A stretch of 64,000 nt of DNA. Origin: Roseicella frigidaeris. Its GTDB lineage: Bacteria > Pseudomonadota > Alphaproteobacteria > Acetobacterales > Acetobacteraceae. This document shows, piece by piece, positions 10,515-26,535 of the stretch. The notes under the pieces are model-generated. The model did not search any database. It was not told the DNA's origin and was given only the letters and a program-made list of their open reading frames with translations. The stretch is taken from NCBI RefSeq assembly GCF_003258945.1, contig NZ_QLIX01000003.1, positions 310,001 to 374,000 on the forward strand, written 5' to 3'. The first letter of the stretch is position 1. The number at the start of each line of letters is the position of its first letter. Made by a program: the position numbers and the translations under genes.

Positions 10515-11735
10515 ATGCGCGTCCGGATGGCAGGAGGCGGCGTCCCGGTCGGGCTGCTCATCACCTGCGGCGTGGCCTGCGCCGCGCTCGCCATGGGGTT
10601 TCGCCAGACCTTCGGCCTGTTCCTGGCGCCCATGACCACGGCGCATGGCTGGTCGGCCTCCAGCTTCGGCTTCGCCATCGCGCTGCAGGTGCTGGTCAAC
10701 GGCCTCACCCAGCCGCTCTGGGGGCAGGTGGCGGACCGCATCGGCGCCCGGCAGGTGATCATGGCCGGGGCGCTGCTGCAGTTCACCGGCGTGCTCGGCA
10801 TGGCCTTCTCGGAGGGCCTGCCCTTCTTCACCTTCTTCGCCGGGCTGGTCATGGGCTCGGCCGTCTCGGCGGCCGGCATGCCGGTGATCATGGCGAGCCT
10901 CACCCGGCTGCTGCCGGAGGCGCAGCGCGGCCGCGCCACCGGCCTCGGCACCGCCGGCTCCTCGCTCGGCCAGTTCCTGGTGGTGCCGGTGGTGCAGCTC
11001 GGCATCCTCGGCCTCGGCTGGCAGGCGGCGCTGGTGGCGGTCGCGCTCGGCTCGCTGCTGATGATCCCCCTCGCCCTGCCGCTGAACGACCGGCCGCCGC
11101 CGAAGCCGGCCCTGGCGGTGGCCGAGCAGACGGCGATGGAGGCGCTCCGCCTCGCCATCCACACGCCGAGCTTCTGGTTCCTCTTCTGCGGCTTCTTCGT
11201 CTGTGGCCTGCATGTCTCCTTCCTGGCGATCCACCTGCCAGGCTTCGTCGCCTCCTGCCATCTGCCGGCGGCGGTGGGCGCGGGGGCGATCAGCCTGATC
11301 GGGCTGTTCAACATCGCCGGGGCCCTCGGGGCGGGCGAGCTCTCCACCCGCTGGCGGCGGCGGGAGCTGCTGGTGGCCATCTACGCCTCGCGCGCCGTGG
11401 TGATGACGATCTTCTTCTTCGCCGAGAAGACCACCGTGAGCGTGCTGGCCTTCTCGGCGGTGATGGGGCTGCTCTGGCTCTCGACCGTGCCGCCGACGGT
11501 CGCGCTCTGCGCGCGGAATTTCGGCACCCGCTGGCTGGCGACGATCTTCGGCCTGGTCTTCCTCGGCCACCAGATCGGCGGCTTCACCGGCGCCTGGCTC
11601 GGCGGCGTGGTCTTCGACCGCACCGGCAGCTACGACCTGATGTGGGTGATCTGCATCCTCGCCGCCGCCTTCGCCGCGCTGGTGCACCTGCCGGTGCGGG
11701 ACCCGGCGCCGGCGCCGCGGCCGGCGCTGGCCTGA
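10515..11735 (+). CDS. Major facilitator superfamily transporter
   Basis: 406 aa with about 12 hydrophobic segments. Family marks are GFRQTFGLFLAPMT in the first loop, LWGQVADRIGARQ as the MFS motif between helices 2 and 3, GLGTAGSSLGQF, and GHQIGGFTGAWLGG near helix 11. This arrangement resembles the monocarboxylate / oxalate-formate type MFS proteins common in proteobacteria. A strong AGGAGGGG ribosome-binding site precedes the ATG. The substrate is not deducible; small organic acids fit both the subfamily and the neighbouring Bug proteins. Confidence 0.85.
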   Translation: MRVRMAGGGVPVGLLITCGVACAALAMGFRQTFGLFLAPMTTAHGWSASSFGFAIALQVLVNGLTQPLWGQVADRIGARQVIMAGALLQFTGVLGMAFSEGLPFFTFFAGLVMGSAVSAAGMPVIMASLTRLLPEAQRGRATGLGTAGSSLGQFLVVPVVQLGILGLGWQAALVAVALGSLLMIPLALPLNDRPPPKPALAVAEQTAMEALRLAIHTPSFWFLFCGFFVCGLHVSFLAIHLPGFVASCHLPAAVGAGAISLIGLFNIAGALGAGELSTRWRRRELLVAIYASRAVVMTIFFFAEKTTVSVLAFSAVMGLLWLSTVPPTVALCARNFGTRWLATIFGLVFLGHQIGGFTGAWLGGVVFDRTGSYDLMWVICILAAAFAALVHLPVRDPAPAPRPALA

Positions 11736-16706: not shown

Positions 16707-17801
16707 CTATTCCGCCGCCGCCGGCACGCCGCGCCGGGCGACCGCGTCGCGCACCGCCGGCAGCAGGCTGCGGCCATACTCTTCGGCATCCTCCAGCGGA
16801 TCGAAGCCGCGGATGAGGAAGGTGTCGACGCCGAGGGCGTGGTAGGCGGCGAGGCTCTCGGCCACCTGCTCCGGCGTGCCGACGAGGGCGGTGGTGTTGG
16901 AGCCGGCGCCGACCGCCGCGGCGACCTCGGTCCAGAGGCGGGAATCGCGCACCCGGCCGCCCGAGGCGGCCTCGAGCAGCCGCTGCGAGCCGATGCTCTC
17001 CGGCTTGCGGCCGCCCGAGCCGGTCGCGCGCAGCGCGCGGATGCGCTCGATGATGGCATCGGCCCGCGCCCAGGCTGCCGCCTCGGTCCCCGCCAGCACC
17101 GGGCGGAAGGACATGCTGAAGCGGAGGCCCGCCGGGTCGCGCCCGGCCCGCGCCAGGCTGGCCCGCACCCGGGCGATGGTCTCGCGCGCCTGGTCGAGCG
17201 TCTCGCCCCAGAAGGCGTAGACATCGGCCAGCCGGCCGGCGATCTCGATGGCGATGTCGGAGGAGCCGCCGAAGAAGACCGGGATGTGCGGCCGCTGCAG
17301 CGGCTTCACCTCGGCGAAGCCGCCCTCGAAGCGGTAGTAGCGGCCCGCATGGTCGAAGGGCTTCGGCTCGGTCCAGAGCCGCTTCAGCAGGGCGAGGTAT
17401 TCCTCCGAGCGGGCATAGCGCTCGTCATGCGGCAGGAAGTCGCCATCCTTGCGTTGCTCGGCATCGCTGCCGCCGCTGATGACATGGATGCCGGCGCGGC
17501 CGCCGGAGAACTGGTCGAAGCTGGCGAATTGCCGTGCCGCGAGCGTCGGCGCGATGAAGCCCGGCCGGTGCGCCACCATGAAGCCGATGCGCGTCGTGGC
17601 CGCGGCGGCGTGCGAGGCGACGAGTAAGGCATCCGGGCTGCTGCTGCCCCAGGCGACGAGGATGCGGTCGAAGCCGGCCGCCTCATGCGCCTGGGCGAAG
17701 CGGGCGATGTAGGGCGGGTCCACCACCGCACCCTCCGGCGGATGGATCTCCGACTGCCGCCGGTGCGAGATCATGCCGATGAATTGCAGCGGGTGGGCCA
17801 T
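16707..17801 (-). CDS. LLM-class flavin monooxygenase (alkanesulfonate monooxygenase SsuD-like)
   Basis: 364 aa from the ATG at 17801 (MAHPLQFIGMISHRRQSE). SsuD-type marks are VAWGSSSPDALLVASHAAA, FMVAHRPGFIAPTLAARQ, GGRAGIHVISGGSDAEQR and GDFLPHDERYARSEEY. The family uses FMNH2 and oxygen to cleave C-S or C-N bonds in sulfonates, and related members attack other small compounds. No ssuABC transporter or flavin reductase gene is adjacent. Instead the gene is directly followed by a Bug gene, which differs from the usual sulfonate operon. This makes a carboxylate-type substrate, or a sulfonate with a carboxylate, plausible. Confidence 0.87.
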   Translation of the reverse strand: MAHPLQFIGMISHRRQSEIHPPEGAVVDPPYIARFAQAHEAAGFDRILVAWGSSSPDALLVASHAAAATTRIGFMVAHRPGFIAPTLAARQFASFDQFSGGRAGIHVISGGSDAEQRKDGDFLPHDERYARSEEYLALLKRLWTEPKPFDHAGRYYRFEGGFAEVKPLQRPHIPVFFGGSSDIAIEIAGRLADVYAFWGETLDQARETIARVRASLARAGRDPAGLRFSMSFRPVLAGTEAAAWARADAIIERIRALRATGSGGRKPESIGSQRLLEAASGGRVRDSRLWTEVAAAVGAGSNTTALVGTPEQVAESLAAYHALGVDTFLIRGFDPLEDAEEYGRSLLPAVRDAVARRGVPAAAE

Positions 17802-17924
17802 GCGACGTTCCTCCGTATCCCCCGCCCGGGTCGGACGCCCGGCCTGGCCCAAGCATGCGGGGCGGCGGGCGGCCCCGTCACCAGGGAATCGCGCCCGGAT
17901 CGGGGCGGGCCCGCGGCCCTCGCC

Positions 17925-18994: not shown

Positions 18995-19038
18995 GAGCAT
19001 GTTCCGTTCGCGTGTGTCCACCTGATCGGGATCTGCTC
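18995..19038. repeat. R3 element forming the kinase stop codon boundary
   Basis: GAGCA (18995-18999) and TGCTC (19034-19038) bound a decayed inverted repeat in which the right arm CACCTGATCGGG is intact. Read on the minus strand the element begins exactly at the stop codon of the kinase gene (TAG then AGCAGATCCCG). Confidence 0.75.
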
Positions 19039-21287
19039 TAGCCCTCCGGCGTGGCGGTCTGCGCCGAGGCGGCCGGCCGGCGCAGCACCTCGGCGATCTT
19101 CAGGGCGAGTTGCTCGCGGGTGAAGGGCTTGCCGATGAGATGCACGCCGTCATCCAGCCGCCCGTGATGCACGATGGCATTCTCGGTGTAGCCCGACATG
19201 AACAGCACCCGCAGGCCGGGGCGCAGCGGCGCCAGGCGCCGCGCCACCTCGTTGCCCTTCATCCCGCCGGGCAGCACGATATCGGCGAGCAGCAGGTCGA
19301 TCGGCGCCCCTGCCTCCACCAGCCGCAGCGCCTCGGCGCCGTCGCCCGCCTCCTGCACGCCATAGCCGAGCTCGCGCAGCATCGCGGCGGTGACCTCGCG
19401 CACCCTGGCATCGTCCTCGAGCAGCAGCACCGCGGCATTGCCGCCCGGGAGCGCGGCCGGCGCGACCGGATGCAGCGCGCCGGCGGTGAGGCCGGCGATG
19501 GCACGCGGCAGGTAGATCCGCACCGTCGTGCCCTCGCCCGGCTCGGAATAGACCTTCACATGCCCGCCCGACTGCTTGACGAAGCCGAAGACCATGGCGA
19601 GGCCGAGCCCGGTGCCCTTGCCCGGCTCCTTGGTGGTGAAGAAGGGCTCGAAGACCCGCGCCAGCACCTCGGGCGGCATGCCGCAGCCGGTGTCGGAGAC
19701 GGCGAGCATCACGTAGTCGCCCGGCGTCACCTCGGCGTGGCGGGCGGCGTAATCGGCATCCAGCACCTTGTTCGCCGCCTCGATGGTCAGGCGGCCGCCC
19801 TCCGGCATGGCGTCGCGGGCGTTCAGCGCCAGGTTCAGCAGCGCGCTCTCCACCTGCGTCGCATCCGCCATGGCGGGCCAGAGGCCGGCGGCGTCCACCA
19901 CCCGCACCTCGATATGCGCGCCGAGCGTCCGCCGCAGCAGGTTCGCCATGTCCGGCAGCAGCGCCGAGACGTTGATCGGCGCCGGCGCCAAGGGCTGCTT
20001 GCGCGCGAAGGCGAGGAGCTGCTGGGTCAGCGCGGCGCCGCGCCGCGCGCCCCAGATCGCCCGGTCGATGCGCACCAGCAGGGGGCTGCCGGGATCGAGC
20101 TTCGGCCGGATGAGCTCGAGATTGCCGAGGATGACGGCGAGCAGGTTGTTGAAGTCGTGCGCGATGCCGCCGGTGAGCTGGCCCATCGCCTGCATGCGCT
20201 GCGCGTCGCGGGCGGTGGCGGCGCTGCGCACGCGCTCGGTGACGTCGGTCGCGGTCAGCACGAAGCCGCCCTCCGGCATCGGGGTGCGGTGGAATTCCAG
20301 GCTGCGGTCATCCGTCGCGCGATGCCGCTCATAGACCACCGGCTCGCGCGGCGAGCGGCCGCCGCGGCCGTGCCGGATCTGCGCCGTGGTCTCGAGGAAG
20401 GCTTCCGTCCGCGCCGCCTCGGCGGCGCGGGCCGCGACCTCGGCATAGGGCAGGCCGGGCCGCAACGCCGCCTCGGGCAGGGCGAGCAGGACGGGGAAGC
20501 AGGGGTTCCAGCGTTGCAGCAGGCCCTCGGCATCGAAGACGCCGATGCCCTGGCTGATGCTGTCGATCGAGGTGGCGAGCTGCTGCGCCAGGGTCCGCTG
20601 CGCCGCCTCCGCATTGGCCAGCCGCTGACGCGCCAGGCCCAGCAGGCGCCCGGCCAGCAGCAGCAGCCCGATCGAGAGCAGCGTGCCCGCGACGGCCAGC
20701 CAGCGCGCCCGGAGCTGCGTCGCCTCGGACTCGCGGATGCGCTGCGTCAGCAGCCGGTTCTCGCCCGATTCCAATTCGCTGAGGATCGACTCGATGCTGC
20801 CCATCAGGACGCGGCCGAGATCGCCCTGCACGAATTGCTGCGCCCCCTCCAGGCCGAGGTCGCGGCGCAGCCGGATGGCCTGCGCCATCACCTCCAGCCG
20901 GCGCTGGATGGTGGCGGCCAGGGTCAGCATCCGCTCCTGCTGCGTCGGGTTGTCGGCCGTCAGCCGGCGCAGGTCGCCCTGCAGCAGGGTGATCTGGCCG
21001 AGCGCGTCCTCATAGGGCCGCAGATAGTCCTCGCGCCCGGTGAGGAGGAAGCCGCGCTGCCCGGTCTCGGCCTCCCACAGCAGCAATTGCAGCCGGCGCG
21101 AGGCGTCGAGCACCGCATAGGTGTGCTGGACCCAGGCCGCGGCGGCGCGGGTGCTGTCGAACTCCCGCCAGAGCAGCGCGCCCGTGATCCCGACCAGCCC
21201 TGCCATCGAGGCGAGCGCGAGGCGATGCGCACGCGGCGTGAGCTTTGCAGGCAAATTGGCGTCCTCGGCAGCCCCAGAGCCGGCCAA
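19038..21287 (-). CDS. Hybrid sensor histidine kinase (CHASE3-PAS-HisKA-HATPase-REC)
   Basis: 749 aa. Transmembrane helix about 25-45 (ASMAGLVGITGALLWRE), a CHASE3 sensor with the motif AETGQRGFLLTGREDYL (about 75-92), a second helix about 195-215, a PAS domain with SISQGIGVFDAEGLLQRWN (about 240-260), HisKA with GGIAHDFNNLLAVILGN, ATPase core (NLALNARDAMPEGG, GTGLGLAMVFGFV), and a C-terminal receiver with LLLEDDARVREV and ADIVLPGGMKGNEVA. It can phosphorylate its own receiver, and no separate output protein is adjacent. The 66-base gap after the fusion gene upstream suggests possible co-transcription with it. Confidence 0.88.
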   Translation of the reverse strand: MAGSGAAEDANLPAKLTPRAHRLALASMAGLVGITGALLWREFDSTRAAAAWVQHTYAVLDASRRLQLLLWEAETGQRGFLLTGREDYLRPYEDALGQITLLQGDLRRLTADNPTQQERMLTLAATIQRRLEVMAQAIRLRRDLGLEGAQQFVQGDLGRVLMGSIESILSELESGENRLLTQRIRESEATQLRARWLAVAGTLLSIGLLLLAGRLLGLARQRLANAEAAQRTLAQQLATSIDSISQGIGVFDAEGLLQRWNPCFPVLLALPEAALRPGLPYAEVAARAAEAARTEAFLETTAQIRHGRGGRSPREPVVYERHRATDDRSLEFHRTPMPEGGFVLTATDVTERVRSAATARDAQRMQAMGQLTGGIAHDFNNLLAVILGNLELIRPKLDPGSPLLVRIDRAIWGARRGAALTQQLLAFARKQPLAPAPINVSALLPDMANLLRRTLGAHIEVRVVDAAGLWPAMADATQVESALLNLALNARDAMPEGGRLTIEAANKVLDADYAARHAEVTPGDYVMLAVSDTGCGMPPEVLARVFEPFFTTKEPGKGTGLGLAMVFGFVKQSGGHVKVYSEPGEGTTVRIYLPRAIAGLTAGALHPVAPAALPGGNAAVLLLEDDARVREVTAAMLRELGYGVQEAGDGAEALRLVEAGAPIDLLLADIVLPGGMKGNEVARRLAPLRPGLRVLFMSGYTENAIVHHGRLDDGVHLIGKPFTREQLALKIAEVLRRPAASAQTATPEG

Positions 21288-21353: not shown

Positions 21354-23444
21354 TCAGCCGCGCTTGCGCACCATGCCGGCGGCGGCGAGCGCGGCCTCGA
21401 CGCCCGGCCGCACCGCCTGCATCACCGCCAGGGCCTCGGCCCGCGGCAGCGGGCGGGGCGCGATGCTCGCCGCCTCCTGCCGCGCGATCACCTCCGGCGC
21501 CCGCGCCGCGGCGAGCAGCGCCGCCTCCAGCCGGTCGCGGATGCCGGGCGGCAGCCCGGCCGGCCCGGCCCAGATGATGAGCTGGCGCGTCGCCGTCTCG
21601 TAGCCCTGCTCGATCAGCGTCGGCGCCTCGGGGAATTCCGGCCAGCGGTCGATGCTAGCGCTGGCCAGCATGCGGACGGTGCCGCCCTTCACCAGGCCGA
21701 TCATCTCCGAGGTGCCGGTGTAGCTGTCGATATGCCCGCCCGCGACCTGGGTGCCGGCCTCGGCGATGCTCGGGATCTGCACATAGGTCATCTGCAGCCC
21801 GGCGAGGCGCTGCAGGTCGAAGAAGCTGACGGCCGAGCCCGGATTGGTGCTGGCGATGGCGAGCGGCCGCTTGCGGCCCTCGGCGATGAACTCGGCCAGG
21901 GTCCGGACATGCGGCAGGGAGGGGCCGACCGGGATGCCGATGCGCAGCTCCGAGGTGACGCCGAGGAAGTCGAAGCTCTCCCAGGGCCTGTAGGGCAGGT
22001 CCATGGTGAGCGGCGCGACCACCAGGGCAGAGAAGCCGACCAGGCCGAAGGTGTAGCCATCGGGCTTGGACTGGGCGATGCGCGTCGGCCCGAGCGTGCC
22101 GCCGGCGCCCGGCGTGTTGCGCACCACGATGGAGACGCCGAGCGTCTTCTCCATATGCGCGGCGATGGCGCGCGCCACCAGATCGGTGCCGCCGCCGGGG
22201 CCGAAGCCGGTGACGAGCTGGATCTCGCGGTTCGGCCAGCCCGCCTCGGCCGCCCCTTGCGCCGTGGCCTGCCGGAGGGCCGGCGCGGCGAGGGTCAGGC
22301 TGCCGAGCAGCACCTGGCCGGCGGCGGCGAAATGCGCGCTGCGCGCCTGGATCTGCTGCGAGAGCGTGTGCAGGTCGCGGAAGCGCCGCTCGAAGGGGCT
22401 GCCGGGGCGGATCGCGTCGATCCCGGCGGCGCGGTAGGCGGCATCGCCGACCGTGATCGCCGCCTGGATGGCATGGGCGCAGCCGAGCCTGAGCCGCGCC
22501 CGCGCCTCGACCGGCAGGGGCGCCTCCGGCCGGGCCGCGGCCTGCATCTCGCCGAGCATCTCGAGCAGCCAGGCGCGCGCCGCGCCGAGCTGCGCCGTGG
22601 CCCGCGCCACCTCGGCCTGCACCAGCGCGTCCTCGGCCAGCAGGGATTGCCCGCGCGGCGTCTTGCCCATGGCGAGCGCCATGAAGGCGCGCAGCATCGC
22701 CCCGGCCGTGCCGAGCGCGACGCCGCTGGCGCCGACCGCATAGAGGCCCTGATGCGTGAAGGCGTAGAGCGGCCCCCGCTCCCGCCGCCTCTCCGGCTCC
22801 TCCCGGCTGGCGCTGAAGCGCTCCGGGACGAAGAGATCCTCCACCGCATAGGAGTCCGAGCCGGTGCCGCGCAGCCCGATGGCGTCCCAGCTCTCGATCA
22901 GCCGCGCCGCGCCGGCCGGGAAGAGCAACGTGCGGATCGCCGGCCGGCCGAGCGCGTTCGGGCGCAGGCTGCCATCCGCCTCGCGCACCGGGCAGTGCAC
23001 GCCCATCCAGCTCGCCATGCGGCAGCCGCTGGCGAAGTCGAAGCGGCCGGAGACGCGGTAGCCGCCCGGCACCACCGCGGCCACCACCCCGTTCGGCGGC
23101 CCCCAGGCGATGACGGCGCGCGGATCGGCGAAGATCGCCGCCGCCGCCTCCGGCTCCAGCATCGCCGCGATCAGCGTGGCGCTGTTGGCGACATAGGTGT
23201 TCCAGGCGACCGAGGCATCGTGCCCGGCCAGTTCGATGATCGCGCGCAGATAGGTGCCGGGATCGACCTCCTCGCCGCCGGCCGAGCGCGGCAGCAGCAG
23301 GCGCAGCAGCCGCGCGCGGTGCAGCGCCTCGGCCAGCTCGGGCGGGAAGCACCGGCTCGCCTCGATGCCGGGCGCCGAGGCCGCGATCAGCGGGCCGAGC
23401 GCCGCCGCGGCGGCCACCGGGTCGGCCGTGCCCGGGTGATCCAT
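21354..23444 (-). CDS. Acyl-CoA-dehydrogenase-type flavoenzyme fused to a TctC/Bug domain
   Basis: One continuous frame of 696 codons. Residues 1-380 form an ACAD-fold flavoprotein of the monooxygenase/HpaB-DszC type: WNTYVANSATLIAAM, GGYRVSGRFDFASGCR, GTGSDSYAVEDLFVPE, and a C-terminal helix ending QARSAHFAAAGQVLLG. From residue 382 the frame reads SLTLAAPALRQATAQG, which looks like the hydrophobic and cleavage part of a Bug signal peptide. A complete Bug domain follows (about 403-696): VTGFGPGGGTDLVARAI, KPDGYTFGLVG, and FFDLQRLAGLQ. The first part is a cytoplasmic enzyme and the second normally periplasmic. A GTG at codon 378 could in principle start a separate Bug protein without a positive signal N-region. 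It is last in a run of three luciferase-like genes. Confidence 0.8.
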   Translation of the reverse strand: MDHPGTADPVAAAAALGPLIAASAPGIEASRCFPPELAEALHRARLLRLLLPRSAGGEEVDPGTYLRAIIELAGHDASVAWNTYVANSATLIAAMLEPEAAAAIFADPRAVIAWGPPNGVVAAVVPGGYRVSGRFDFASGCRMASWMGVHCPVREADGSLRPNALGRPAIRTLLFPAGAARLIESWDAIGLRGTGSDSYAVEDLFVPERFSASREEPERRRERGPLYAFTHQGLYAVGASGVALGTAGAMLRAFMALAMGKTPRGQSLLAEDALVQAEVARATAQLGAARAWLLEMLGEMQAAARPEAPLPVEARARLRLGCAHAIQAAITVGDAAYRAAGIDAIRPGSPFERRFRDLHTLSQQIQARSAHFAAAGQVLLGSLTLAAPALRQATAQGAAEAGWPNREIQLVTGFGPGGGTDLVARAIAAHMEKTLGVSIVVRNTPGAGGTLGPTRIAQSKPDGYTFGLVGFSALVVAPLTMDLPYRPWESFDFLGVTSELRIGIPVGPSLPHVRTLAEFIAEGRKRPLAIASTNPGSAVSFFDLQRLAGLQMTYVQIPSIAEAGTQVAGGHIDSYTGTSEMIGLVKGGTVRMLASASIDRWPEFPEAPTLIEQGYETATRQLIIWAGPAGLPPGIRDRLEAALLAAARAPEVIARQEAASIAPRPLPRAEALAVMQAVRPGVEAALAAAGMVRKRG

Positions 23445-23499: not shown

Positions 23500-24459
23500 T
23501 CAATGCGCGGCGGCGGGCGGGCCAGGGGGCATGGCGGGCCGCAATTCGCCGAGGCGCGGCAGCACCTGCTCCAGCAGCAGCCGGGTCTGCGCCAGCGGCG
23601 CCTCGTTGCCGCGGCCGAGCGGGCGCAGGATGAACTTGCTCACCCCGGCCGCGGCATAGCCGGCGATGCGGGCGAGGATCTCCTCGGCGCCGCCGGCGAC
23701 GATGCCGCGCGCCGGGTCGCGGCCGGTGCGGGCGCGATAGGCGGCCATCGCCTGCTGCACCGGCGCCTCCTCCGGCCGGCCGAACCAGAAGGCGAAGCCG
23801 GCGCCGTAATGGTCCGCGTCGATCCGCCGGCCGAGCGCCGCCGCCTCCCGCCGGATGGCGGCGATGACCTCGCCCGCCTCCTCCGGCGTCTCGCCGCCCG
23901 CCTGCCAGCCGGTGCCGAAGCGGGCGGTGCGGCGGATCGCCGCCGGGGAGCTGCCGCCGATCCAGACCGGCAGCGCCGCCTGCGCCGGGCGCGGCGCGAT
24001 GCTGGCGGCGGCCAGGCGGAAATGCCGGCCGGCGAAATCGACGCTCTCCTCCCGCCAGAGCCGGGTGATGACCTCGAGCGCCTCGTCGGTGCGGCCGCCG
24101 CGCGTCGCCGTGTCGAGGCCCATCGCCGCCCATTCCGGCGCCAGCGGGCTGCCGATGCCGAAGGCGGGCAGCAGCCGCCCCTCGGAGAGCATGTCGATGG
24201 TGGCGCATTGCTTGGCCACCAGCACCGGCTCCCGCTGCGCCAGCGAGAGCACGTTCATGCCGAATTTCAGCCGTCGCGTGCGGCCGGCGACGGCGGCCAG
24301 CATGGTCAGGCATTCGAGGATGGGGGCGCGGCTGACCAGCCGGTCGGTCTGCCAGAGGGAATCCGCCCCCGCCTGCTCGCAGAGATCGACCCAGCGCCAG
24401 AACCCCGCGGCGCTGGCGAAGGGGTAGTCCATCAGGCCGAGGCCGATCGCCAGCCCCAT
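23500..24459 (-). CDS. LLM-class flavin-dependent oxidoreductase
   Basis: 319 aa. Luciferase-like fold with LEQ-type helix (WRWVDLCEQAGADSLWQTDR), FGMNVLSLAQREPVLVAKQ, GRLLPAFGIGSPLAPEWA and VWIGGSSPAAIRRTARFG. These fit the F420/FMN class often named TIGR-type LLM oxidoreductases. The last 15 residues are Pro-rich and dispensable-looking. It starts 4 bases downstream of the next gene in the operon (24464-25303) and is followed by the fusion gene after 55 bases. Confidence 0.85.
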   Translation of the reverse strand: MGLAIGLGLMDYPFASAAGFWRWVDLCEQAGADSLWQTDRLVSRAPILECLTMLAAVAGRTRRLKFGMNVLSLAQREPVLVAKQCATIDMLSEGRLLPAFGIGSPLAPEWAAMGLDTATRGGRTDEALEVITRLWREESVDFAGRHFRLAAASIAPRPAQAALPVWIGGSSPAAIRRTARFGTGWQAGGETPEEAGEVIAAIRREAAALGRRIDADHYGAGFAFWFGRPEEAPVQQAMAAYRARTGRDPARGIVAGGAEEILARIAGYAAAGVSKFILRPLGRGNEAPLAQTRLLLEQVLPRLGELRPAMPPGPPAAAH

Positions 24460-24463
24460 GCCC

Positions 24464-25303
24464 TCAGCCCCGCGCCAGCGGCGCCAGTTCGTCGAGGCGG
24501 CGGAGGATGCCGTCGCGGTCGAGATCCGGCACCTCGAGCAGCACGCGGTCGATGCCGGCGGCGCGGTAGGGGGCGAGCGCCGCGGCCTCGGGCGGCGCGC
24601 GGAAGACGGTGATGGAGAGCGTCTTCAGGTCGCGCCCGGCCCCCCTCGCCGCCGCATCCAGCCGGCGCCGCGCCTCGGCGGGGTCGAAGCCGGCGCCGGC
24701 GCGGGGGAACCAGCCGGTGCAGAACTCCACCACGCGCTTCAGCGTGTGGTCCGTCTCGCCGCCGAGCAGCACCGGCGGATGCGGGCGCTGCAAGGGCTTG
24801 GGGTGAAGCCAGGAGGGCTCGATCTTCACGAACTCGCCCGCGAAGCCCGCCACCTCCTCGGTCCAGAGCGCCTGCATCGCCAGCACGCGCTCGCGCATCA
24901 GCCGGAAGCGCGTCGGGTAGCGGGCGCCGTGATCCTCCATCTCCTCGACGTTCCAGCCGCCGCCGATGCCGAATTCGAAGCGGCCGCCGGAGAGACGGTC
25001 GAGGCTGGCGACGGATTTCGCGGTGACGATGGGGTCGCGCTGCGGCACCAGGCAGACGCCGGTGCCGAGCCGCAGGCGCTGCGTCCGGGCGGCGGCGAAG
25101 GAGAGGGCGACGAAGGGGTCGTGGGTGTGGATGTAGCGCTTCGGCAGCTCGCCGCCGCCCGGGAAGGGCGAGCGCCGGCTGACCGGGATATGCGTGTGCT
25201 CGCAGACGAAGAGGCTCTCGAAGCCCCGCGCCTCCAGCGCCGCGCCGAGCTCGCCGGGATCGATGCCGTAATCGGTCGGGAAGTAGAAGACGCCGATCCT
25301 CAT
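24464..25303 (-). CDS. LLM-class flavin-dependent oxidoreductase
   Basis: 279 aa from the ATG at 25303 (MRIGVFYFPTDYGIDPGELG). Marks: SLFVCEHTHIPVSRRSPF, LGTGVCLVPQRDPIVTAKS, GRFEFGIGGGWNVEEMEDHG and VLLGGETDHTLKRVVEF. This pattern is typical of the short F420-dependent-type LLM proteins (TIGR03619-like). Its ATG overlaps the stop of the upstream gene by four bases (ATGA), so translation is coupled. It may use F420 rather than FMN; which one cannot be told from the sequence. Confidence 0.85.
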   Translation of the reverse strand: MRIGVFYFPTDYGIDPGELGAALEARGFESLFVCEHTHIPVSRRSPFPGGGELPKRYIHTHDPFVALSFAAARTQRLRLGTGVCLVPQRDPIVTAKSVASLDRLSGGRFEFGIGGGWNVEEMEDHGARYPTRFRLMRERVLAMQALWTEEVAGFAGEFVKIEPSWLHPKPLQRPHPPVLLGGETDHTLKRVVEFCTGWFPRAGAGFDPAEARRRLDAAARGAGRDLKTLSITVFRAPPEAAALAPYRAAGIDRVLLEVPDLDRDGILRRLDELAPLARG

Positions 25304-26379
25304 GCCCGGTCCTCCGTCGCGGCGCCGGGGCCGTTCAGCCCGGCTGCCTGGGCCATCACCTCGATCGCCTCGGGCTGGCGGGAGCGCACGGTCAGCGCAT
25401 CCGCCCCGGAGTCCGCCCAGGCGCGGTAGCGCGCGCGGATGCGGGCCGGCGGGCCGACCAGGGATTTCTGGTCCACCCACTCATCCGGCACGGCGGCGAT
25501 CGCCTCCTCCTTCCGGCCGGCGAGGTAGAGCTCCTGCACCCGCTCCGCCGCCTCGCCGAAGCCGCGGCGGATCATCATGTCCTTGTGGAAATTCTTGTCG
25601 CGGTGCCCCATGCCGCCGACATAGAGCGCCACCTCGGGCTTCAAGCGTTGCAAGGCGGCGCCGACATCCTCGGCGACCTCGACATGCACCGAGGCCTGGA
25701 TGGTGAAGTCGGCGCGGGTCTTGCGGCGGCCGGTCGCCGCCTCGGCGCGGCGGAACCCCTCCTCCAGCCAGGGCAGGTATTCCGGCAGGGAACCGGGGAC
25801 GAAGCCGAGCGCCAGCCAGCCATCGGCGATCTCGGCGGTCAGCTTCACCGTCGCCTCGTTGCCGGTGCCGAGATAGATCGGGATGTCGGGATTCATGTGC
25901 AGGATCGACTTCAGCGGCTTGCCGACGCCGAGCGCCCCCTCGCCGGTATAGGGCAGGCTGATCTCCTTGCCCGCATGCGTCACCGGCGCCTCGCGGCGGA
26001 AGATCTTGCGCATGATCGCCACATAGTCCTTCAGCCGGTAATAGGGCCGGCCCCAGGGCTCGCCATACCAGCCCTCGACGATCTGCGGCCCGGAGACGCC
26101 GAGCCCGGCGATGAAGCGGCCGCCGCCGGCGAGCGCATCGACGGTCGCGGCGCACATCGCGGCATTGGCCGGGCTCCGCGCCGCGAGCTGCATGATGCCG
26201 GTGCCGAGGCGGATGCGCCGCGTCTTGCCGGCGAGATAGGCGAGCGGCGAGACCGCATCGGTGCCATAGGCCTCGGCGGTCCAGACCGTGTCGTAGCCGA
26301 GCGCCTCGGCGCGCTGCGCCAGCTCGACCGGGAGGTTGAAATGCGCGCCGGAATAGCCGAGCGCGAGACCGAGCTTCAT
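25300..26379 (-). CDS. LLM-class F420-type oxidoreductase, first gene of operon
   Basis: 359 aa from the ATG at 26379 (MKLGLALGYSGAHFNLP). Marks: TVWTAEAYGTDAVSPLAYLA, GTGIMQLAARSPANAAM, FIAGLGVSGPQIVEGWYG and IPIYLGTGNEATVKLTAEIA. The GTGIMQLPARSPAN-like region is characteristic of mer-related F420 LLM proteins. A conserved C-terminal region ends with VRSRQPEAIEVMAQAAG. It leads the four-gene minus-strand operon that ends with the flavoenzyme-Bug fusion. Confidence 0.87.
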   Translation of the reverse strand: MKLGLALGYSGAHFNLPVELAQRAEALGYDTVWTAEAYGTDAVSPLAYLAGKTRRIRLGTGIMQLAARSPANAAMCAATVDALAGGGRFIAGLGVSGPQIVEGWYGEPWGRPYYRLKDYVAIMRKIFRREAPVTHAGKEISLPYTGEGALGVGKPLKSILHMNPDIPIYLGTGNEATVKLTAEIADGWLALGFVPGSLPEYLPWLEEGFRRAEAATGRRKTRADFTIQASVHVEVAEDVGAALQRLKPEVALYVGGMGHRDKNFHKDMMIRRGFGEAAERVQELYLAGRKEEAIAAVPDEWVDQKSLVGPPARIRARYRAWADSGADALTVRSRQPEAIEVMAQAAGLNGPGAATEDRA

Positions 26380-26496
26380 GGTGTTCCGCCCCCCGGGGAT
26401 TGCCTGGGCCGCGCCGCGGGCGGCCTTGTCCGGGGCGAGCCTGTCGCAGCCTCGCCGGCTTGGCAAATCCCGGCGGCGGACGGGACGGCCCGCAAT

Positions 26497-26535
26497 TGCC
26501 ATGGCCGGCGGGCTTGGCGCCCGCCGGCCATGGCA
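26497..26535 (-). terminator. Perfect 17-bp hairpin downstream of dioxygenase gene
   Basis: Arms 26497-26513 and 26519-26535 (TGCCATGGCCGGCGGGC and its complement) pair perfectly around a five-base loop. It lies 64 bases beyond the stop of the dioxygenase gene, in its direction of transcription, and ahead of the LLM operon. There is no T-tract after it, so Rho-independent termination would be weak. Confidence 0.5.

Follow-up and report, generated by a model that had tools for sequence, protein, structure and literature searches.

The described systems closest to the protein reported here are the ACAD-fold two-component flavin monooxygenases, represented by the solved structures of Rv3094c (7f70), HsaA (3afe) and HpaH C2 (2jbr), and the Bug/TctC solute-binding proteins (PF03401). 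The enzyme half of the fused protein matches the monooxygenases over nearly their full length, with the difference that its own last 7 residues are replaced by a Bug half. With the Bug/TctC proteins it has the domain in common; unlike them, the Bug half lacks a start and a signal peptide of its own and is fixed to the C-terminus of an enzyme.

The arrangement of the DNA also has described counterparts. In the classic lacI–lacZ fusions, a deletion between short direct repeats joined neighbouring genes in frame. Deletion between short direct repeats can proceed independently of RecA in E. coli, as described in PMC5426353. Like such short-repeat deletions, the present locus retains one repeat copy and lacks the DNA in between, and like the lacI–lacZ fusions it carries two adjacent genes joined in frame. 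Unlike both, the joint comes from a natural Roseicella-type genome, with no known selection.

The fused frame and the sister locus

The window, i.e., the whole stretch of 64,000 nucleotides that was analysed, belongs to the genome here called G000, and its numbering is used for all coordinates except those stated to be from the sister genome. On its minus strand, positions 21354–23444 hold an open reading frame that starts with ATG and encodes 696 amino acids with no internal stop. The sequence-only reading had described this frame as running uninterrupted from an enzyme into a Bug domain, which the ORF listing and the Pfam domains of both halves confirm.

Residues 1–381 (22302–23444, minus strand) were assigned to an ACAD-fold flavin monooxygenase-like half from Pfam and from the alignment to the sister genome. 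This half contains the ACAD C-terminal domain (Acyl-CoA_dh_2, PF08028, residues 238–363, 65.9 bits against a cut-off of 22.7), and residues 22–380 align with Rv3094c, the closest solved structure (8.3e-40), in keeping with its near full-length likeness to solved members. The earlier assignment to an ACAD/HpaB-type enzyme stands, with the small correction that by sequence the nearest solved structures are Rv3094c and then HsaA. With the NCBIfam equivalog of HsaA (NF045629), the enzyme half scores 135.8 bits, far under the cut-off of 450.

Residues 403–696 (21357–22238, minus strand) form the Bug/TctC domain, as identified by Pfam and phmmer. TctC (PF03401) matches residues 423–652 at 100.2 bits, above its curated cut-off of 27, and the match spans profile positions 1–235 of 274; among solved chains, BugD (2f5x) has the best E-value (phmmer, 1.9e-29), and the alignment of this half reaches the C-terminal end of its relatives. 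Between the two lie residues 382–402 (22239–22301, minus strand), which alignment to relatives identifies as a remnant of the Bug signal peptide, comprising its hydrophobic and cleavage regions, followed by the first mature residues. Here SLTLAAPALRQATAQG corresponds to the later part of the signal peptide, so that the hydrophobic and cleavage region suspected at the joint is borne out. The N-terminal signal peptide of a Bug protein is not present as such: the start and the n-region are gone, and the domain begins after residue 402.

Roseicella sp. DB1501 (G003, NZ_JABFHG010000009.1) is the sister genome and the closest one by this protein. Protein identity to it is 92–95% for the enzyme half and 93–95% for the Bug half, depending on the comparison and the stretch. 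In DB1501 the enzyme and Bug genes are adjacent and separate. The enzyme gene ends in QVLLGRAPPGFL-stop (also written ...AGQVLLGRAPPGFL-stop), and the Bug gene, preceded by GGGGAGGA, begins with MHRRALLGSLTLAAPA 222 bp past the enzyme stop. Alignment of the DNA revealed one 270-bp block that is absent from the window at the joint and is flanked in DB1501 by a 9-bp direct repeat, CTGCTCGGC (DB1501 positions 10921–10929 and 11191–11199, 270 bp apart). A single copy of CTGCTCGGC, the putative deletion scar, remains in the window at 22302–22310 (minus strand). It encodes the shared LLG, codons 379–381 of the fused frame (window 22310–22302), where the joint had been placed from the sequence. The missing block contains the last 7 enzyme codons (RAPPGFL) and the stop, a spacer of 222 bp that carries the ribosome site of the Bug gene, the MHRRA codons and one repeat copy. 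Its length of 270 bp is divisible by three and so preserves the frame, which by chance alone would happen for one length in three.

CTGCTCGGC is the sole 9-mer common to DB1501 positions 10773–10953 (about the last 60 enzyme codons) and 11150–11260 (the Bug start), and microhomology of at least 9 bp was found in 0.038% of 200,000 random joins of 100–499 bp on the same contig. The marks of a short-repeat deletion are all present, namely a repeat at the joint, one retained copy and an undeleted relative.

To place the event among other differences between the two genomes, contigs of both were compared (L058–L071 against the window and L072–L087). Indels were counted between successive matching stretches when the net difference was at least 40 bp with little left on the other side, gaps inside matching stretches being excluded. 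The comparison gave 15 indels of 59–292 bp, the 270-bp one included, and an indel of the size seen at the joint is thus ordinary between these genomes. Near the ends of 13 of these indels the longest repeat measured 3 to 6 bp; it measured 9 bp at the joint and 14 bp in a 108-bp indel.

Taken together, these comparisons make it very probable that a flavoenzyme gene and a Bug gene were joined in frame by the deletion of 270 bp between direct repeats of 9 bp. The enzyme end, the spacer and the Bug start would have been lost through slippage, or through some other event at the short repeat that does not need RecA, leaving a single frame in the G000 lineage.

Distribution, ancestral arrangement and gene neighbourhood

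The fused protein was sought in genus, family, class and relatives samples, which overlap and each count the window's own genome. All 5 genus genomes match at E ≤ 1e-100, as do 44 of 347 family genomes at E ≤ 1e-110, 11 of 385 class genomes at E ≤ 1e-100 and 15 of 59 genomes in the first relatives sample at E ≤ 1e-60; in every one of these samples the fused form is limited to the own genome, and the same enzyme–Bug architecture was not found in more than one species. Because the family and class searches scored the best 3 candidates per genome, a more divergent fused relative may have escaped them. The sequence-only reading had proposed a search for other genomes with the same fusion, and as far as these samples reach, the joint is unique to one assembly, an outcome which that reading had itself named as a refutation and which speaks against a recruited sensor domain. 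By place list, the 44 family matches consist of 1 fused, 6 with separate halves (G003, G004, G211, G269, G117 and G062) and 37 with one half, the separate halves being adjacent in DB1501 (G003) only. Since adjacency is confined to the window and DB1501, the enzyme–Bug pairing is itself rare, and the fusion is rarer still.

Among the literature matches listed, titles and abstract openings named no ACAD–Bug fusion, a statement about those titles and openings and not about print as a whole. The words 'fused' and 'fusion' each occur 0 times in the passages of PMC5994714 (6 of 6 places), and 'fused' occurs 0 times in those of PMC9602780 (12 of 14 places). PMC5812351 has 'fused' 7 times and 'fusion' once, and its fusion passages (12 of 49 places) concern membrane subunits.

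Of the 20 loci that a scan yielded, possibly without the own species among them, 3 carry the enzyme, 18 carry Bug and 1 carries both. The ends of the genes were examined in 5 early loci and in L031–L057, using rows of at least 55% identity; the remoter enzyme loci L006–L030 (except L017) and family places without a locus were left out. Each of the 18 Bug loci inspected shows a start belonging to the Bug gene itself, with two arginines and then a hydrophobic stretch behind it (starts read by eye). For L039–L042, one reading reported an inner ATG, and an MKRR start lies further upstream in the alignment. The enzyme relatives stop 6–8 residues past the aligned end in 11 rows, which are read as 8 distinct places, as three of the places occur twice, once from each of two collections. 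Given the Arg-Arg signal peptide of the Bug relatives and the stop of the enzyme relatives, the two-gene state is taken as ancestral and the deletion is placed on the window's branch. On the gene ends of the relatives inspected, the reverse polarity, in which an ancestral fusion was split by an insertion in DB1501, was rejected.

The next gene downstream of the fused frame encodes a CHASE3-PAS hybrid histidine kinase (19038–21287, minus strand), and the next gene upstream a luciferase-like monooxygenase (23500–24459, minus strand); DB1501 has the same order. Adjacency of Bug and kinase was seen at three places, in the own genome, in DB1501 and in Dankookia rubra (L035). In the family sample, 24 of the 347 genomes encode the kinase at E ≤ 1e-150 (best 3 candidates per genome), and it stands beside this Bug gene in the own genome and DB1501 only. 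BctC–BctE, as described in passages of PMC9602780, is a precedent for a binding protein and a kinase forming a sensing pair. A conserved Bug–histidine kinase sensing pair was rejected as weak, because only these two of the 24 kinase genomes show the adjacency; a binding-protein/kinase pair in a few species is possible, and the neighbouring histidine kinase might once have depended on this Bug.

Four luciferase-like monooxygenase genes surround Bug genes in the window (16707–17852, 23500–24459, 24464–25480 and 25300–26502, minus strand). The one at 16707–17852 also clusters with Bug genes in Roseicella aerolata (L032), Paracraurococcus sp. LOR1-02 (L033) and Dankookia rubra (L035), and the luciferase-like monooxygenase and Bug genes may form an oxygenase–transport catabolic cluster. 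G000, a genome of 5.8 Mb, holds 133 TctC/Bug places, a large expansion; comparable ones are described for Bordetella and Rhodoplanes in passages of PMC5994714. No close paralogue of the Bug half that could serve as a backup was found elsewhere in the own genome at E ≤ 1e-35.

Selection, product and competing explanations

Comparison with DB1501 gives a pN/pS of 0.31 over the 381 codons of the enzyme half and of 0.20 over the 294 codons of the Bug half. When changes were polarised with relatives, the ratio of nonsynonymous to synonymous changes on the G000 branch was 11:10 for the enzyme and 9:9 for Bug, and on the DB1501 branch 15:21 and 7:18, respectively, with 5 enzyme and 3 Bug changes assigned to neither branch. 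The difference between branches is not significant for the enzyme (p = 0.58) or for Bug (p = 0.20). On the G000 branch, the nonsynonymous fraction is somewhat under the neutral one (enzyme p = 0.047, Bug p = 0.034). With the frame still open and some constraint on both halves, the fused product is without visible decay. Much of the G000 branch, and of the conservation, may predate the deletion; selection on the fusion itself is not evident and there is little sign of decay, which is what a recent event would lead one to expect.

Two readings of the frame had been offered from the sequence, a deletion at the shared LLG and a real fusion with a cytoplasmic sensor. The deletion held up, the genes being apart in DB1501 with 270 bp between the CTGCTCGGC repeats, and the sensor fusion gained no support, as the samples searched contained no second genome with it. 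Weighing against the deletion account are the open frame and the constraint on both halves, and also the fact that only 2 of the 15 indels, the joint included, have a repeat of at least 9 bp.

An assembly or sequencing artefact is unlikely, though it accounts for most of the doubt that is left. It would mean that the two genes are separate in reality and that 270 bp were lost in assembly, which would fit a joint known from one assembly of one strain of the species. Against it, a 9-bp repeat is too short for the usual assembly graphs to collapse. The loss is clean and keeps the frame, and it is one of the 15 indels of 59–292 bp that lie between the two genomes across the contigs compared.

We consider it very improbable that the flavoenzyme now uses the Bug domain in the cytoplasm for ligand binding or sensing. 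The intact frame and the pN/pS of both halves would agree with such a role, but the linker is a mere leftover of a signal peptide, none of the samples holds a second fused genome, and no plasmid record among 72,556 covers 80% of the fused protein (3 match at E ≤ 1e-30, all with the Bug half only). Moreover, the conservation possibly stems largely from before the deletion, and the Bug ratio is higher on the G000 branch than on that of DB1501, a difference short of significance as given above. We give equally little credence to a fusion fixed in the species and useful to it, a chimera built from a signal-peptide remnant in which a flavin monooxygenase has its substrate bound or channelled by an attached Bug domain in the cytoplasm.

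Still less probable is a Bug protein made and exported separately from the GTG at codon 378, as the sequence-only reading had allowed. This GTG is the sole ATG, GTG or TTG between codons 331 and 422, and it directly precedes the hydrophobic stretch LLGSLTLAAPAL. However, the 20 bases before it contain no Shine-Dalgarno-like stretch, the relatives' Arg-Arg n-region has been lost, and in relatives the encoded residue is an ordinary valine of the enzyme (10 of 11 rows read QVLLG or QVML). A frameshift or sequencing slip as the origin was rejected, the gap relative to DB1501 being 270 bp and not one or two bases.

As to the product of the deletion, the Bug half has lost its start, ribosome site and basic n-region, and the GTG has no Shine-Dalgarno-like stretch in front; one cytoplasmic protein is thus expected, with the Bug half as a passenger. 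The enzyme half may be active, as it keeps all but its last 7 C-terminal residues, whereas export of the Bug half has probably ceased, and with it would go its transport or sensing role. A predicted structure of the fused protein, made from a 5-row alignment, reached a mean pLDDT of 40.4 and is too poor to inform function; a 16-row alignment, which set enzyme rows on the Bug half, was kept out of folding.

The fusion is most likely a one-off produced by an ordinary mechanism and not a new kind of protein. It offers a clean example of two adjacent genes turned into a single frame by a short-repeat deletion. It also cautions that an enzyme and a binding protein annotated as one fused gene need not have a common function. 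Should the fusion prove to be fixed and active, this would be a gene fusion of recent origin in which the deletion scar can still be read.
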